Shown in pieces: positions 25,002 through 32,330 of a stretch of 33,453 nt of DNA (within the stretch, counting starts at the first letter, position 1; every line of letters begins with the position of its first letter). The stretch covers positions 1-33,453 of the forward strand of contig CAJJCU010000156.1 of NCBI GenBank assembly GCA_905182775.1, read 5' to 3'. Both the position numbers and the translations under genes were made by a program. This stretch comes from an uncultured Flavobacteriales bacterium (GTDB lineage Bacteria > Bacteroidota > Bacteroidia > Flavobacteriales_D > Crocinitomicaceae). Under the pieces are notes generated by a model. The model saw nothing but the letters and a program-made list of their open reading frames with translations. It did no database searches and had not been told where the DNA came from.

Positions 25002-25616
25002 ATGGATCTAATCAGATATTATTTTCCCGACTTTACATCCTTACAACATGAGCAACTAGACCAACTCACTCCGCTCTATAATGAATGGAATTCTAAAATC
25101 AATGTTATATCAAGAAAGGACATGGAAAACTTCCGCGAAAGACATGTGCTTCACTCCCTAGCCCTTGCAAAATGCATCTCATTCCCTAAAGGAAGTCATC
25201 TGTTAGATATCGGTACAGGAGGAGGTTTCCCTGGGGTACCCCTTGCGATAGCCTACCCGAATTGCTCCTTTGTGTTATTAGACTCTATCGGCAAAAAGCT
25301 AAAAGTGATCAATGAAATTGCTGGTGTTCTAGGATTAAAAAACATCCAGACTGTCCATTCGAGGGTAGAAGACCACAAGGGAGATTATAATTATTTGATA
25401 AGTCGCGCCGTAACAAACATGCCGAACTTCATGAAACTCACAAATCATCTTACACGATTTGGAAATAAAAACTTTAAAGAGATTCTATATTTAAAAGGGG
25501 GGGATTTTGACGACGAGCTACATAAAATAAAGCTAAATTGTCAGGTTCACGAATTAGATAAAATATTTAGCGAACCCTTTTTTGAAACCAAAAAAGTAAT
25601 TCAGCTTCGCTATTAA
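25002..25616 (+). CDS. rsmG: 16S rRNA (guanine527-N7)-methyltransferase
   Basis: A 204-residue SAM-dependent methyltransferase that modifies G527 of 16S rRNA; loss of this mark gives low-level streptomycin resistance in other bacteria. The SAM site is HLLDIGTGGGFPGVPLAIAYP (66-86), with LLDSIGKKLKVI as motif II and YNYLISRAVTNM as motif IV. FRERHVLHSLALAK (44-57) is the family opening. It begins at the base after the sigma factor stop, so it lies in the same operon. Its stop codon overlaps the stop of the convergent apaG by four bases. Confidence 0.93.
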   Translation: MDLIRYYFPDFTSLQHEQLDQLTPLYNEWNSKINVISRKDMENFRERHVLHSLALAKCISFPKGSHLLDIGTGGGFPGVPLAIAYPNCSFVLLDSIGKKLKVINEIAGVLGLKNIQTVHSRVEDHKGDYNYLISRAVTNMPNFMKLTNHLTRFGNKNFKEILYLKGGDFDDELHKIKLNCQVHELDKIFSEPFFETKKVIQLRY

Positions 25617-25999
25617 TTCAATAAATCAGGGTAAACTAGATTGAATGTTGGGATTTCAGCATAAATAATTTCTTCGAGGTCAAGATTTTTAAAGAAAAAC
25701 TTACCGTACATCATCCCCATTGAATTAATCAGCTCACATCCACTAACATATTTAAACTCTTCCCCAGGTAAAAGAACAGGCTTTTCTCCAACAACTCCCT
25801 CACCACTAATGGTAGATGTTCCATGCAGCAAATGCACAACATGCCATTCTCGAGTCAATAACTGAACGGGAACAGACAAACGATTTGTTATGATAATTTC
25901 ATAATTATAAAAATAATTAGAGTTTGCTTCGTTTGATAGATCTTCTCGATACCAATTAGAAACAACAATTTCAATTCCTAGAGTTTTCGTGTAAGTCAT
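25613..25999 (-). CDS. apaG: ApaG-like protein (FnIII-like DUF525 domain)
   Basis: A 128-residue single-domain protein. The signature YNYEIIITNRLSVPVQLLTREWHV, GEGVVGEKPVLLPGEEFKYVSGCEL and MYGKFFF is that of ApaG, in which the GExVxGxxPxL motif is highly conserved. The family has a fibronectin III-like fold. It was linked to Co2+/Mg2+ tolerance in enteric bacteria and also occurs as a protein-binding domain in eukaryotes; its biochemical role is unclear. The start MTYTKTLGIEIVVSNWY is standard. It converges on rsmG with a four-base overlap and is transcribed away from the nqr operon. Confidence 0.9.
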   Translation of the reverse strand: MTYTKTLGIEIVVSNWYREDLSNEANSNYFYNYEIIITNRLSVPVQLLTREWHVVHLLHGTSTISGEGVVGEKPVLLPGEEFKYVSGCELINSMGMMYGKFFFKNLDLEEIIYAEIPTFNLVYPDLLN

Positions 26000-26170
26000 G
26001 AACTAAAGTTATTCTATTCTTTTCAATTATCCATAAGCATTTGACATTTTAGCCAAAATTGCGCAAACATTTCTTCAAGATGACTACAACATGAGAAACT
26101 ATATTGACTAAAAACATAAAGCAACAATAAGAACCGCTTTTTAAATACCTTGTTTCAGTAGGTGTTTTTT

Positions 26171-26189
26171 ATTTAGAACCGTTCTAAAT
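26171..26189. promoter_or_regulatory. Perfect 19-bp palindrome ahead of nqrA, likely operator
   Basis: ATTTAGAAC, one central C, then GTTCTAAAT: nine-base arms with no mismatch. It lies about 57 bases upstream of the nqrA -7 candidate and 90 from the ATG. A lone GAACCG copy of its core half-site is at 26131-26136. The spacing suits a dimeric repressor or activator. I cannot name the protein. Confidence 0.6.
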
Positions 26190-26245
26190 TAATATTTACG
26201 CGTATAAATTATATTCTCAACACCTTACTACGATTGCTAAATTCG

Positions 26246-26253
26246 TAATTTTG
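26246..26253 (+). promoter_or_regulatory. Candidate -7 element (TAATTTTG) of the nqr operon
   Basis: An exact TAnnTTTG match 25 bases before the nqrA ATG. A TTA at 26225-26227, 18 bases upstream, is one base from the -33 TTG. The rest of the 279-bp gap from apaG holds only the palindrome and no ORF or hairpin terminator that I could see. Confidence 0.5.
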
Positions 26254-26278
26254 ATGTCTAATTATAATTGCAAATTTC

Positions 26279-27631
26279 ATGTCCAATACAATCAGTATTC
26301 GAAAAGGTCTAGATATCAGACTAGTAGGAGAAGCGACAAAAGAAATAAGAGAAGTCTCTGTGACTGGAATCGTTGCGGTTTCACCACTTGATTTTCATGG
26401 TTTAATACCAAAGATGGTTGTCAAAGAGGGAGACACCGTTTCAGTAGGAGACATCTTATTCTTTGATAAAAAGAAAGAAAGCATCAAGTTTGTAAGTCCC
26501 GTCAGCGGAACTGTTCAACAAATTGTTCGAGGTGAGAAAAGAAGAATCACAAATATTCTTATTGCCACAGATAGCAAACAAACAGCAAAGAAATTCGACC
26601 TTAAAAAAATCTCAGAGTATTCAAGTGAAGAAATCAAAAACCTTCTTTTAGAAGCTGGATTTTGGTCATCAATGAAACAAAGACCACTTGACATTATAGC
26701 AGACCCTGATAATGAAGCTAAAGGACTTTTTGTCTCATCATTTGATTCTGCGCCGCTTGCTCCGGACTATGACTTTGTATTAAATGAAGACATGGAATCT
26801 TTGCAAGTAGGGTTTGAAGCATTAAATATTTTGATGGATGGTAAAGTTCATTTAAGCAGCAAGCCTAATTCGGTGTTTTCTAAACTAAATGCAGTAACGC
26901 ATCATACATTTGAAGGTGTACATCCCGTTGGAAATGTTGGAACTCAAATCCATCATATCGATCCGGTAAACAAAGGCGAATTTGTTTGGACTTTAAACAT
27001 TCAAGAAGTAGCTGCGATAGGTAAATTTTTAAATACTGGAACCGTAGATCCAACGAGGAAAATAGCTTTAACTGGTTCAGAGGTTCATACAACGACCTAT
27101 CTAAAAATAGTCAAAGGCACAACAATAAGTAGTCTCGTTGACAATACAATTGAAGGCGAAAACGTTAGATATATCTCGGGAAATGTACTAACTGGAGATA
27201 AAAAAGAGCTGACAGACTATATTGGTCATTACGCCAATCAAATCACGGTGATACCTGAAGGAGATGAGTACAAGTTCTTTTTAACTACAGGATGGTTAGG
27301 TCATGGGTTTGATAAATTTTCAAACTCAAGATTGTTTCCAACCTTCCTTTTACCCAAAAGCAAGAAGTTCCGATTGGATACAAATACCAATGGAGAAGAA
27401 AGAGCGTTTGTAGTAACGGGCGAATTAGAGCGCGTGTTTCCATTTGACATCCTACCAGTTCAATTGACAAAAGCAGCGATTACTGAGGATATTGACAGTA
27501 TGGAAAACCTCGGCATCTATGAAGTGGCACCAGAAGATTTTGCATTGTGCGAGTATGTTTGTACAACAAAAATCAATATTCAAGATAAAATTAGACAGGG
27601 GCTAGACCTTATTGCTAGCGAATGTATGTAA
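26279..27631 (+). CDS. nqrA: Na+-translocating NADH:quinone reductase subunit A
   Basis: A 450-residue soluble subunit that sits on the cytoplasmic side of the NQR complex and takes part in quinone binding. It has the family opening SIRKGLDIRLVGEA (residues 5-18) and a barrel-sandwich stretch, GLIPKMVVKEGDTVSVGDILFFDKK (about 41-65, in two parts), the middle region GTVDPTRKIALTGSEVH, and a C-terminal part with DFALCEYVC. Length is close to the V. cholerae subunit (446). It opens a run of six nqr genes in the usual A-F order. The ATG at 26279 follows an AT-rich leader without a Shine-Dalgarno, as is normal here. Regulation may involve the upstream palindrome. Confidence 0.95.
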   Translation: MSNTISIRKGLDIRLVGEATKEIREVSVTGIVAVSPLDFHGLIPKMVVKEGDTVSVGDILFFDKKKESIKFVSPVSGTVQQIVRGEKRRITNILIATDSKQTAKKFDLKKISEYSSEEIKNLLLEAGFWSSMKQRPLDIIADPDNEAKGLFVSSFDSAPLAPDYDFVLNEDMESLQVGFEALNILMDGKVHLSSKPNSVFSKLNAVTHHTFEGVHPVGNVGTQIHHIDPVNKGEFVWTLNIQEVAAIGKFLNTGTVDPTRKIALTGSEVHTTTYLKIVKGTTISSLVDNTIEGENVRYISGNVLTGDKKELTDYIGHYANQITVIPEGDEYKFFLTTGWLGHGFDKFSNSRLFPTFLLPKSKKFRLDTNTNGEERAFVVTGELERVFPFDILPVQLTKAAITEDIDSMENLGIYEVAPEDFALCEYVCTTKINIQDKIRQGLDLIASECM

Positions 27632-27647
27632 CCTTAATACTGAAACA

Positions 27648-28892
27648 GTGAAATTTTTAGAGAAATATTTACACAAAATGGAGCCCCACTTTATCAAAGG
27701 TGGAAAATACGAAAAATGGAATCCATTATTTGAAACCCTTGCTACTTTTGCTTTTACGCCAAAGATCGTAACGACAAAAGGAACACACATACGCGATGGT
27801 GTTGACCTTAAAAGAACTATGATGACCGTAGTTCTGGCCTTAATCCCGTGTTTGATTTTTGGTATTTATAATACTGGGCATTGGGAAATGGCGGTTCAAG
27901 AAGGCAATAGAAACCTGCCCTACTTCACTGAAATGATGGCTAAATTCCTTACAGGACTTACGATTGTTCTTCCAGTAATAGTTGTCTCTTATGGTGTCGG
28001 GTTAACCATCGAATTTATGTTCGGAATGATTCGCGGACACTCGCTACACGAAGGTTTTCTAGTTTCAGGAATGCTAATTCCATTGACAATGCCTGCTGAT
28101 GTTCCATTGTGGATGGTAGGTTTAGCTACTGCCTTTGCCGTTATTATTGGAAAAGAAATTTTCGGTGGAACGGGGATGAACGTAGTCAATATCGCCTTAA
28201 CTGCAAGAGCTTTCTTATTTTTTGCCTATCCAACATCTATGTCCGGAGATAAAGTTTGGATGTCAGGTTTAGGAGATAAAATGGCTACAAACCCTGAAGG
28301 CTTAGATGGTTTCTCAGGAGCGACTGCACTCGGTGATCTGGCGTCTTTTATGTCTGACAAAGCCACTGTAGCTGGAGAAGTAGTCCAATCAAATGAGGCT
28401 GTTCAAAATTTCTCTAGTGAATATACCGCTTGGGAATCTTTTGCGGGAATGATTCCAGGATCGATAGGAGAAACATCAACAATGGCATGCCTTCTTGGTG
28501 CTTTAATTCTTGTCATAACAGGAGTTGGTTCACTAAGGATCATACTCTCCTTTTTTGCTGGAGGATTTATTATGGGGCTTTTACTAAATGCTTTAGGAGG
28601 TAATCCTTATTTAGACTTACCCGCCTACTATCACTTAATTATTGGAGGTTTTGCGTTCGGTGCTATATTTATGGCTACTGACCCTGTAACAGCATCGCAA
28701 ACTGCATTAGGCAAAATCATCTACGGATTTCTAGGAGGCTTCTTAGCCATCATGATTCGTGTTCTCAACCCCGCATATCCAGAAGGTGTATTCCTCGCGA
28801 TACTCTTTATGAATATTATGGCACCTATTATTGACCATTATATAGTTCAAGCGAACATCAATAGAAGACTTAAAAGATTAAAAACAGCATAA
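27648..28892 (+). CDS. nqrB: Na+-translocating NADH:quinone reductase subunit B (GTG start)
   Basis: A 414-residue membrane subunit with about ten hydrophobic segments, holding the riboflavin and one covalent FMN. I take GTG 27648 as the start, 16 bases after nqrA, since KFLEKYLHKMEPHFIKGGKY then matches the usual N-terminus. The longer frame from TTG 27612 would overlap nqrA, and ATG 27678 would remove conserved residues. The flavinylation site is in GFSGATALG (222-230) with Thr 226, and KEIFGGTGMNVVNIALTARAFL (169-190) and FMATDPVTA are core membrane motifs. It forms the ion-pumping core with NqrD and NqrE. The ORF is otherwise regular in length. Confidence 0.93.
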   Translation: MKFLEKYLHKMEPHFIKGGKYEKWNPLFETLATFAFTPKIVTTKGTHIRDGVDLKRTMMTVVLALIPCLIFGIYNTGHWEMAVQEGNRNLPYFTEMMAKFLTGLTIVLPVIVVSYGVGLTIEFMFGMIRGHSLHEGFLVSGMLIPLTMPADVPLWMVGLATAFAVIIGKEIFGGTGMNVVNIALTARAFLFFAYPTSMSGDKVWMSGLGDKMATNPEGLDGFSGATALGDLASFMSDKATVAGEVVQSNEAVQNFSSEYTAWESFAGMIPGSIGETSTMACLLGALILVITGVGSLRIILSFFAGGFIMGLLLNALGGNPYLDLPAYYHLIIGGFAFGAIFMATDPVTASQTALGKIIYGFLGGFLAIMIRVLNPAYPEGVFLAILFMNIMAPIIDHYIVQANINRRLKRLKTA

Positions 28893-28893
28893 T

Positions 28894-29637
28894 ATGGCAC
28901 TTAATAAAGAATCGAATGGATTTACGTTTGGGTTTGCGATTGTACTTGTCGTCGTACTAGGTATTATTCTTGCTTCTCTAGCTGAAGGTTTAAAGCCACT
29001 CAAAGAGCAAAACGTTCGGGTAAAGAAACAAATCGATATACTCTCTGCAATGATGGATGTAGAAGCAGTAGGAATTGACCGCTCGAATGCAGAAAAAGAG
29101 TTTCCAAAATATGTAAACCTTGACGACGCTATTGTTTTAAATAATAGTGGCACTGAAATAGGAAAAGGCAAGGAAGCTTTTGAAATTGACATCAAAAAGG
29201 AATACCGAGACAAAACACTCGAAACGAAAGACAAAAGGTTCCCGTTATTTATTGCTAAAGATAAAACAGGTGCCTCTCGATATATCATACCTGTCGTAGG
29301 TAAAGGGCTTTGGGGACCAATATGGGGCTACATTTGTCTTAAAGAAGATATGAGAACTGTAGCAGGTGTATCCTTTGCGCACAAGACAGAGACACCAGGT
29401 CTAGGAGCTGAAATAAACAAGCCATTCTTTATGGATCGATGGAAAGCTTCTATGATTAGTGATGCTTCAAGAAATTTTAAGAAATATGAAGTTGTAAAAG
29501 ACAACTCAGGTTCGACCGACCCAAGTAAAATTGACGGTATAACCGGAGGAACCATTACATCAAAAGGTGTAGAAGAAATGGTCAATCGAAGTCTCGCAAT
29601 ATACTCGAACTATTTTAAGAACCTAAACACTAAATAA
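28894..29637 (+). CDS. nqrC: Na+-translocating NADH:quinone reductase subunit C
   Basis: A 247-residue periplasmic subunit with one N-terminal membrane anchor (about 11-30) and a flavin-carrying domain. The FMN is attached through a Thr phosphoester; here the site reads DGITGGTITSKGV (214-226) with Thr 220. The motif has Thr and Gly where the best known version has Ser and Ala (SGAT). GLGAEINKPFF (170-180) is the conserved loop. The start is one base after the nqrB stop. Attachment needs the flavin transferase ApbE, which is not beside this operon. Length is normal for the family. Confidence 0.94.
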   Translation: MALNKESNGFTFGFAIVLVVVLGIILASLAEGLKPLKEQNVRVKKQIDILSAMMDVEAVGIDRSNAEKEFPKYVNLDDAIVLNNSGTEIGKGKEAFEIDIKKEYRDKTLETKDKRFPLFIAKDKTGASRYIIPVVGKGLWGPIWGYICLKEDMRTVAGVSFAHKTETPGLGAEINKPFFMDRWKASMISDASRNFKKYEVVKDNSGSTDPSKIDGITGGTITSKGVEEMVNRSLAIYSNYFKNLNTK

Positions 29638-29638
29638 C

Positions 29639-30316
29639 ATGAGTACTGAAAAAAAATCTTCAGAGCCTCTATTTTCGAAGAAGAATAAAAAGCTCATTAC
29701 GGATCCATTAACGGATAACAACCCCGTAACTATTCAGGTATTAGGTATCTGTTCAGCATTGGCAATTACAGTTCAAGTAAATCAGGCTATTGTCATGTCG
29801 ATGTCTGTACTTTTTGTCATCATAATGGGGAACTGGATTGTTTCTCTCTTAAGAAATTTAATTCCGTCTAGGATTAGAATTATTGTTCAACTCTTGATTG
29901 TTGCTTCTTTGGTGATTATCGTTGACCAAGTATTGGCTGCCTACCTCCCTGATCTTTCAGAGAAGCTATCGGTTTTTGTCGGACTAATTATTACCAATTG
30001 TATCATCATGGGTCGCCTTGAGGCATTCGCCATGGCGAACAAGCCTTGGCCTTCAATCCTTGATGGATTTGGAAACGGAGTAGGTTATGGCGCTATCCTT
30101 ATTATTGTTGCTGTGTTCAGAGAACTCTTTGGATCAGGTACCCTAATGGGTATTCCAATTTTCGGAAACCCGCTACCGGGAGAAGAGTCAGGATTGTATG
30201 AATTAGGCTATCAAAACAACAACCTTATGATTCTGCCTCCAATGGCCTTGATCATTGTAGGTATTATTATTTGGGTTCAACGCTCTAGAAATAAAGCGTT
30301 AATTGAAGAACATTAA
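29639..30316 (+). CDS. nqrD: Na+-translocating NADH:quinone reductase subunit D
   Basis: A 225-residue inner-membrane subunit with about six helices. The pair of Cys proposed to hold the membrane Fe centre shared with NqrE is present: C38 in [11 protein letters not shown] and C121 in [28 protein letters not shown] is the conserved loop near the C-terminal half. It begins one base after the nqrC stop. Length is slightly above the typical 210 because of a Lys-rich N-terminal extension ([18 protein letters not shown]). Confidence 0.95.
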
Positions 30317-30327
30317 AAAAAAGAACA

Positions 30328-31020
30328 ATGGAAAGTACTCTTGATATATTTGTAAAAGCTATTTTTTCCGAGAACATGATTTTCGCATACTTTCTCGGGA
30401 TGTGCTCCTACCTGGCGGTTTCTAAAACCGTAAAAACTGCAGTGGGCTTAGGAGCAGCTGTTATTTTTGTTTTAACAGTTACGGTACCGGTTAATTTTCT
30501 ACTTGAGAATTACGTCCTTAAGGAAGGCGCGCTATCCTGGTTAGGCGAAGAATATGCTGAATTAGACTTAAGCTTTCTATCGTTTATCATGTATATAGCG
30601 GTTGTTGCGTCAATCGTTCAATTGGTTGAAATGTTAGTTGAGAAATTTGCACCTGCCCTATATGGTGCGCTTGGTATTTTCTTGCCACTAATTGCAGTAA
30701 ACTGTTCCATTTTAGGTGGCGCATTGTTTATGCAAGAAAGACAATACTCAACGATCTTAGATGCAACAGCATTTTCATTAGGCTCAGGAGTGGGATGGTT
30801 TATTGCTATTGTTGCTATTGCTGCAATACGTGAGAAGTTGCGTTATTCAAATGTCCCAGGACCATTAAGAGGATTGGGAATAACATTTATTGTAACAGGA
30901 CTTATGGGTATGGCTTTCATGAGTTTTATGGGTATTAAATACGGTAAAGAAGCTCCAACTGAGGATGTTGAAACTGTAACAACTATGATTGACACAAACA
31001 AAGAAAATAACATTAACTAA
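30328..31020 (+). CDS. nqrE: Na+-translocating NADH:quinone reductase subunit E
   Basis: A 230-residue membrane subunit, homologous to NqrD but inverted in the membrane. The two Fe-centre Cys are C26 in [12 protein letters not shown] and C126 in [12 protein letters not shown]. The end of the protein is an acidic tail ([21 protein letters not shown]) not part of the core fold. It is 11 bases after nqrD and five bases before nqrF, so it belongs to the same message. Confidence 0.95.
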
Positions 31021-31025
31021 TCATT

Positions 31026-32330
31026 ATGGGAACAATTCTGATCATAACCTTAATTGCATTTCTAACGGTCATTTTATTATTGACCTCAATGCTATTGTTT
31101 GTAAAGGCTAAAATTTCACCTAAAGGAAAATTGGTGATTGATATTAATAATGGCGAGAGAATGCTAGAAGTAGATGGTGGTGGCACCTTACTCAGTACAC
31201 TTGGAAGTTCAGGTATCTTTTTACCATCCGCATGCGGAGGCGGTGGAACTTGCGTTCAATGTATATGTCAAGTCAATGAAGGTGGCGGCGAAATCCTCCC
31301 AACTGAAGCTCCTCATTTCTCGAGAAAAGAAATTGCCTCTAACCATAGACTTGGATGTCAAGTTAAAGTAAAGGAAAATATGAAAATTCATATTGAAGAG
31401 GAAGTACTTGGTATTAAAGAATGGAAAGCTAAAGTTTCGTCAAACTATAATGTCGCTACCTACATTAAAGAATTCATTGTTGAAATTCCAGAAGACATGA
31501 ATTACAAAGCCGGTGGTTATATTCAAATTAATATTCCCGAAACAGAAGTTAAGTTTTCTGAAATGGATATTACAGCGCATCCTCAAGATCACCCAGGGGA
31601 ACCAAAGAAATTCGAAAAAGATTGGTCTGAAGGTAAATTTGCGATAAGAGACCTCGTTATGAAAAATAATGAAGAGGTTATACGGGCCTATTCAATGGCG
31701 TCTTATCCAGCAGAAGGAAGAAAAATCATGCTTAATGTTAGGGTTGCAGCTCCACCATGGGATCGCGCTAAAGACACCTGGGCAGATATCAACCCAGGAA
31801 TAGCATCTTCCTACATATTCGGACTTAAAGAAGGAGACGAGGTTACTATTTCAGGACCTTACGGTGAATTCTTTATCAATGAATCTGATGCCGAAATGCT
31901 TTACATCGGTGGTGGCGCGGGTATGGCACCAATGCGATCACATTTATATGAACTCTTCAAGACCCTTCAGACAGGAAGAAAAGTCACCTATTGGTATGGT
32001 GGTCGTTCAAGAGCCGAATTATTTTATATCCATTACTTTAGAGATTTGGAAAAAGAATTTCCAAATTTCAAATTCTTCTTAGTGCTTTCCGATGCATTAC
32101 CTGAAGATAATTGGGTTAATAAAGAAAATTGTGACGATCCTAATGGCGATGGTTTCAGTGGTTTTGTACACCAAGTTGTGATGGATCAATACCTTGAAAA
32201 ACATGAGGCTCCAGAAGACTTAGAAGTCTATTTCTGTGGTCCTCCTTTGATGAATCAAGCGGTAATAAAAATGTGCGATGATTGGGGTGTTCCTGATGAA
32301 AATGTAAGATTCGACGATTTCGGAGGATAA
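31026..32330 (+). CDS. nqrF: Na+-translocating NADH:quinone reductase subunit F (NADH entry)
   Basis: A 434-residue subunit that takes electrons from NADH. It has an N-terminal membrane helix (4-26), a plant-type ferredoxin domain with Cys 70, 76, 79 and 111 as ligands (SACGGGGTCVQC and LGCQV), the FAD site RAYSMAS (220-226), and the NADH-binding part GGGAGMAPMRSHL (295-307) and FCGPPLMNQ. The ligand spacing equals that of the V. cholerae subunit. It ends the operon; a bioF-like gene converges 12 bases downstream. NqrM, needed for the Fe centre, is not seen next to it. Confidence 0.96.
   Translation: MGTILIITLIAFLTVILLLTSMLLFVKAKISPKGKLVIDINNGERMLEVDGGGTLLSTLGSSGIFLPSACGGGGTCVQCICQVNEGGGEILPTEAPHFSRKEIASNHRLGCQVKVKENMKIHIEEEVLGIKEWKAKVSSNYNVATYIKEFIVEIPEDMNYKAGGYIQINIPETEVKFSEMDITAHPQDHPGEPKKFEKDWSEGKFAIRDLVMKNNEEVIRAYSMASYPAEGRKIMLNVRVAAPPWDRAKDTWADINPGIASSYIFGLKEGDEVTISGPYGEFFINESDAEMLYIGGGAGMAPMRSHLYELFKTLQTGRKVTYWYGGRSRAELFYIHYFRDLEKEFPNFKFFLVLSDALPEDNWVNKENCDDPNGDGFSGFVHQVVMDQYLEKHEAPEDLEVYFCGPPLMNQAVIKMCDDWGVPDENVRFDDFGG

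Follow-up and report, generated by a model that had tools for sequence, protein, structure and literature searches.

A palindrome upstream of the nqr operon in a Flavobacteriales genome is very probably a Fur box, held at an activator-like position before respiratory genes

The Bacillus PerR box (TTATAATnATTATAA) and the Escherichia coli Fur box, with arms TTATAAT and TGATAAT, respectively, share a 7-1-7 geometry with the palindrome described here. In Riemerella anatipestifer, the text of one study gives the Fur box as ATTTAGAATTATTCTAAAT and the abstract of the same study an E. coli-like box; in gel shifts, purified R. anatipestifer Fur retarded promoter fragments from four genes, and the targets include an iron-dicitrate-type receptor, as they do in relatives of the genome analyzed here (PMC5609570). 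The boxes tabled in that study lie 9–91 bp from start codons, those of uptake genes and others, and the table names none of these genes nqr, act or sdh (PMC5609570). Porphyromonas Fur is described as a separate subfamily that does not bind the E. coli box (PMC6613475), so Bacteroidota Fur proteins need not all act alike. In another phylum, the Fur-activated norB, aniA and nuoA genes of Neisseria, the last encoding a subunit of the respiratory NADH dehydrogenase and in that respect akin to an nqr target, carry Fur boxes of a different sequence well upstream of the promoter, at ~100 bp, whereas in a repressed gene the box lies over the promoter; the review describing them terms direct activation by Fur rare (PMC3788343). 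Alphaproteobacterial Irr boxes, or iron control elements, resemble the present case in having a Fur-superfamily regulator and iron-using targets, and differ from it in phylum and promoter type (PMC3413700). No report of Fur controlling nqr or alternative complex III in Bacteroidota was found among the open-access titles listed; PMC9331221 contains none of five Fur-box terms, and PMC8552683 does not mention Fur.

The window, meaning the whole 33,453-nucleotide stretch of DNA that was analyzed, is contig C156 of a 1.95 Mb, 80% complete assembly from an uncultured Flavobacteriales bacterium. Its named relatives are Flavobacteriales/Crocinitomicaceae assemblies, the closest of them by NqrA being UBA952 (90% identity). 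Within the genus nqrA is patchy, present in 8 of 36 relatives and in the window's own genome. A perfect 9-1-9 palindrome, ATTTAGAAC-C-GTTCTAAAT, sits between a divergent apaG-like gene and nqrABCDEF:

25613–25999, minus strand: apaG-like gene, divergent neighbor (PF04379)
26131–26136, plus strand: GAACCG half-site, not conserved (3/75) and probably no part of the system
26171–26189, no strand: putative Fur box ATTTAGAACCGTTCTAAAT, perfect 9-1-9 palindrome, predicted center about -78 from the transcription start
26246–26253, plus strand: sigma-A-type -7 box TAATTTTG (TAnnTTTG), predicted transcription start near 26258
26279–27631, plus strand: nqrA (NF003761, 565 bits, cut-off 450; TIGR01936, 444 bits, cut-off 321)
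27612–28892, plus strand: nqrB (PF03116)
28894–29637, plus strand: nqrC (PF04205, FMN-binding domain)
29639–30316, plus strand: nqrD (PF02508)
30328–31020, plus strand: nqrE (PF02508)
31026–32330, plus strand: nqrF (2Fe-2S, FAD and NAD domains)

The 3' end of the palindrome is 89 bp upstream of the nqrA ATG (26279), and 57 bp separate the end of its 17-base core from the -7 box, which is the single TAnnTTTG on the plus strand within 25991–26290. A first-pass annotation had pointed out both the palindrome and this 57-bp distance, and both are borne out by the sequence. Because the flavobacterial sigma-A -7 consensus TAnnTTTG is placed at -12 to -5 in F. psychrophilum (PMC9723704), transcription would start near 26258 and the box would be centered near -78. 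The 9-1-9 form occurs once in the entire window. Dinucleotide shuffles of the 279-bp intergenic stretch yield a perfect 9-1-9 palindrome in 15 of 2000 cases and, with any loop of 0–8 bases allowed, a perfect palindrome in 70 of 2000. An origin by chance alone is unlikely at these rates of about 1 to 4%, improbable yet not negligible; the earlier wording, "very unlikely", was right in direction and too strong in degree. The reality of the palindrome is settled by its conservation in relatives, not by the shuffle odds.

That conservation extends across much of the order. The sample is selective: nqrA is present in 204 of 349 genomes, and 98 upstream regions were read, one per genome, covering 47 genera. 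Forty added loci were picked mostly at one or two per genus, seven loci were first found via the box itself (L069, L071, L073, L092, L150, L155 and L162), and L009 was left out since its start could not be placed. With a box counted at three or fewer mismatches to TTTAGAATnATTCTAAA between -130 and -85, the relatives do carry the same site where the first-pass annotation had proposed to look for it, in 75 of the 98 upstream regions and 33 of the 47 genera; by subtraction, 68 of 91 regions have it when the seven box-found loci are set aside. Twenty-two of the 75 boxes have no mismatch, 30 have one, 19 two and four three, and 16 are perfect 9-1-9 palindromes. By family, the box precedes nqrA in f1 (45/45), f3 (13/14), f4 (5/6), f11 (1/1), f9 (10/17) and, weakly, f13 (1/4); none was found before nqrA in the remaining 7 of 17 loci of f9 or in seven other families (0/11). 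The GAACCG half-site that had been noted at 26131–26136 is present in the sequence, but GAACCG or its complement occurs within 60 bp upstream of the box in only three of the 75 boxed regions, all from the window's genus, and it was rejected as a component.

The consensus of the 75 boxes is ATTTAGAATnATTCTAAAT, and the commonest base at each of their arm positions is that of the Riemerella Fur box, the same kind of 19-bp palindrome with the same outer arms. The copy in the window differs from the consensus at two positions of the core and equals the Riemerella box at 16 of 19 positions. This identity of the consensus with a published flavobacterial Fur box upholds the earlier proposal of a dimeric-regulator operator of 7-1-7, Fur/PerR-type geometry in the nqr promoter; the accompanying remark that the sequence was not a known consensus does not stand, as the box had already been published for R. 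anatipestifer. A PerR box was considered and rejected, the consensus arms here being TTAGAAT versus TTATAAT. The palindrome is very probably a landing site of the iron regulator Fur. Binding of the box by Fur is highly likely in our judgment, and Fur would be the binder in this organism as well.

The position of the box is conserved too. Spacing was counted between the last base of the core and the TA of the -7 box, allowed as TAnnTTTG or TAnnTTTA in the nqrA upstream regions. It is 55–58 bp in 56 of the 75 regions, 45–48 bp in 18 and 50 bp in one (52, 15 and one of 68, by subtraction, without the box-found loci). The short class occurs in several f1 genera and in those f9 genera that have the box. 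In 22 long-spacing genera, the spacer holds 0.33 bits per column versus 1.60 for the box and 1.68 for the -7 box, so its length is kept and its sequence is free. The two classes differ by one helical turn, which would fit a protein contacting RNA polymerase from one face. At a spacing of 57 the box lies upstream of the promoter without overlapping it, the arrangement of Fur-activated promoters; this differs from Riemerella in that the box is 57 bp ahead of the -7 box of a respiratory operon. A functionless product of chance could draw on the shuffles that do produce such palindromes, but a box kept in three quarters of the sampled regions at fixed spacing contradicts it and leaves it a negligible probability.

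The same box occurs before other genes of the order. The exact sequence TTTAGAAnnnTTCTAAA is present in 74 of 150 genomes, compared with 24 of 150 for the backwards control, among the matches listed. Sixty-nine loci (29 + 40) were read, again among the matches listed; the genes following exact boxes encode TonB receptors, Fe-S assembly proteins (Fe-S_biosyn, Nfu) and DUF4856 lipoproteins, or are nqrA, actA and sdhC. Because the box is thus common to iron-uptake receptors, Fe-S assembly genes and iron-rich respiratory complexes, the evidence points to iron. The first-pass annotation had suggested a regulator sensing Na+, redox or respiration. The presence of the box before nqr, complex III and sdh genes would agree with such an operator, but the same box before TonB receptors and Fe-S assembly genes, together with the match to the published Fur box, makes it quite improbable, and a Na+ or redox sensor was rejected on the ground that iron-uptake and Fe-S genes share the site.

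Spacing largely sorts these sites by type of gene. Among the matches listed, all 26 respiratory sites, before nqrA (8), actA (16) and sdhC (2), lie at 46–48 or 56–58 bp, versus none of 15 iron-uptake-type sites, eight of them before TonB receptors and seven before lipoproteins of DUF4856 type or similar, at 45–48 or 55–58 bp. These 26 and 15 sites were sorted by hand, with families verified for a sample, and five of the 15 (three receptors and two lipoproteins) have no assigned TAnnTTTG and were scored as off-spacing. The 10 uptake-type sites with an assigned -7 box have spacings of 4 or 39–41. Other sites abut or overlap the promoters of small proteins and of an Fe-S assembly gene (spacings -25, 0 and 4), and fabI-like and channel-like genes, named by eye, have spacings of 68–69. 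Exceptions are a gene of no respiratory complex at spacing 48 (L068) and, in the class-wide search below, a TonB receptor at spacing 55 (L253).

Several further features of these promoters were observed. An ATACC-N6..8-GGTAT palindrome stands beside many Fur boxes, mostly in TonB-receptor promoters, by eye and with no control count (L072, L075, L078, L080, L083, L085, L086, L088, L090 and L091; L126 in the window's own genome). In DUF4856-type lipoprotein genes (L154 and L187 by Pfam; L182, L185 and L188 by eye) the Fur box is 39–41 bp ahead of the -7 box, as in several FecA-type receptors, which hints that DUF4856, a domain of unknown function, may have a role in iron uptake. A box directly abutting the -7 box (spacing -25), the typical position of a repressor, is found at L066, L082, L087 and L089 and at L127 of the window's own genome; it appears to be followed by a short Lys/Cys-rich frame in L082, L087 and L089 (by eye) and by a response-regulator-like gene at L127.

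A class-wide search that used no gene names shows the favored spacings as well. The exact composite Box-N{36,66}-TAnnTTTG gives 82 matches in 63 of 395 Bacteroidia genomes, compared with three for the backwards control. Thirty-four of the 82 fall at 55–58 bp and 26 at 45–46 bp (60/82); when matches are counted once per family and spacing, 29 of the 48 resulting cells lie at 45–46 or 55–58 (binomial p = 5e-10 relative to a uniform distribution over 31 spacings). Fifty of the 82 loci were read, with genes named mostly by eye from the first residues and family searches on a sample. At the two favored spacings, 41 of the 47 loci read precede actA (alternative complex III), nqrA or sdhC. The 31 read of 34 at 55–58 comprise 23 actA, three sdhC, one nqrA and four others, namely the TonB receptor of L253, two small proteins across an actA box and a membrane protein of unclear identity; the 16 read of 26 at 45–46 comprise seven actA, four nqrA, three sdhC, one aconitase-like gene (by eye) and one locus without a readable gene. 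The sequence of the box is ordinary for the order. What is new is its position: fixed, activator-like and common to three respiratory complexes over many families.

The window's own genome repeats the arrangement. A search for a box with three or fewer mismatches, N57 and a -7 box, covering the spacing of 57 only, recovers nqrA, actA (contig C45) and one site inside a coding frame, with none in the control. The C45 gene encodes six CxxCH motifs, matches subunit A of alternative complex III (6btm chain A, E = 2e-68) and is followed by a gene for a 1091-residue Fe-S protein. The first-pass proposal to look for the site elsewhere in the genome is therefore answered in part, by an actA site at the same spacing; the relaxed box without a -7 box hardly exceeds its control (34 versus 28, and 53 versus 39 at three mismatches), and no regulon was built for this reason. 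The genome's sdhC has no box (best candidate, four mismatches). Nor does its fur gene (best candidate, five mismatches), and autoregulation of fur was rejected. Among the few own-genome loci read, no iron-uptake gene was identified behind a box; related genomes have such genes.

Two FUR-family proteins are encoded in this genome. The main Fur (148–153 residues, contig C118) matches PF01475 at 95.8 bits and falls short of the cut-offs of all NCBIfam Fur models (at best 68.7 bits, with 146 required). Its recognition-helix stretch reads YRVSRATLYNT, with N where the rhizobial L301, L303 and L305 have R. The Fur proteins of a Bacteroides and of a Bernardetia plasmid record also have YNT, as do 25 of the 30 FUR loci from relatives, the helix being left unread in the other five; the N of YNT may set the sequence of the box. 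The second protein is divergent and has the stretch STLYRTL.

Another member of the Fur superfamily could bind the box instead, either this divergent paralog or an Irr-like protein that represses iron-using genes at low iron. The Irr/ICE motif differs little from the box in sequence. Genomes of the genus that bear nqr more often have multiple FUR matches (7 of 9, versus 5 of 28 lacking nqr; Fisher p = 0.002, kinship uncorrected; noted at L139:1412–1828), and in a Riemerella fur mutant sdh and complex III genes still respond to iron, as discussed below. Against this reading, G003, G050 and G056 carry the box before nqrA with a single FUR-family match each, and the main Fur is the better candidate for that reason; moreover, a fixed helix face near -78 is not expected of a repressor. 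Against the two Irr models, whose cut-offs are 150 and 170, the main Fur reaches 33.8 and 32.4 bits; the paralog has no match to either. No Irr protein was found in the genome at the model cut-offs, an absence that is not final in an 80% complete assembly; rhizobial and Paracoccus plasmid-borne relatives fall below the Irr cut-offs too. A different Fur-superfamily binder is unlikely on balance, and the main Fur is preferred.

If the main Fur binds, the sign of its control is the next question. Several expression studies point to activation with iron. First, the quinol:cytochrome c oxidoreductase genes of Elizabethkingia anophelis are reported 4.1–8.6x higher in iron-rich medium, with one sdh gene also up (PMC7221216). 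Second, cytochrome genes of R. anatipestifer CH-1 are reported down in low iron (PMC5429918). Third, in another phylum, nqrA–E of Actinobacillus pleuropneumoniae are reported down under iron restriction (PMC1832192). In the R. anatipestifer YM fur mutant, sdh, one chain of NADH:ubiquinone oxidoreductase and a subunit of complex III are still listed as falling in low iron (PMC5609570, Table 2), so iron control of such genes there does not require Fur. In part, and as a comparison made by function and not by box, these data speak against a need for Fe-Fur at sdh and a complex III gene.

Fur might also bind and repress nqr, for example through spreading or looping from its upstream position, with NQR then going up when iron is low. 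Repression is the best-known action of Fur. Oligomers of the protein on DNA have been described (PMC3788343). This reading is distinctly improbable, and slightly more so than that of another binder: the fixed spacing of 45–48 or 55–58 is unlike that of iron-uptake-type sites, and repression runs against the higher, not lower, complex III expression in iron-rich Elizabethkingia and the fall of nqr in iron-restricted A. pleuropneumoniae.

The reading that we favor is activation by Fur. The main Fur, as an iron-loaded dimer, would occupy the box before nqr on a fixed face of the helix, with its center near -78 (or near -66 to -68 where relatives have one turn less), from where it would most likely aid RNA polymerase at the nqr promoter. 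The Na+-NQR operon would then be on with sufficient iron and down when iron is scarce, and actA and, in many relatives, sdhC would be controlled alongside it. Binding is well supported; activation and a Fur-polymerase contact are what we infer, and this reading as a whole, box and activation from about -78, is somewhat more probable than its negation. It departs from the Neisseria cases (~100 bp upstream) in that the distance is ~66–78 bp, in two spacing classes that many families share, and in that activation is here deduced. More broadly, it is plausible, at roughly even chances, that in Bacteroidia as a whole Fur directly activates the genes of aerobic respiration when iron is available, from a box on one fixed helix face that precedes the nqr, alternative complex III and succinate dehydrogenase genes at about -78 or -67, that a YNT-for-YRT helix goes with a phylum-specific box, and that position separates activated from repressed genes.

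Growth is iron-limited in much of the ocean, the home of this flavobacterium's relatives. The arrangement before iron-rich respiratory genes in many Bacteroidota suggests that their respiration may be switched on by plentiful iron. If true, this would be a route other than the RyhB small RNA of enterobacteria. The Na+-NQR of these bacteria gains a candidate regulator, and direct activation by Fur becomes testable at many promoters together. Should the position code prove right, the genes of Bacteroidota that iron turns on and those that it turns off could be predicted from sequence alone.
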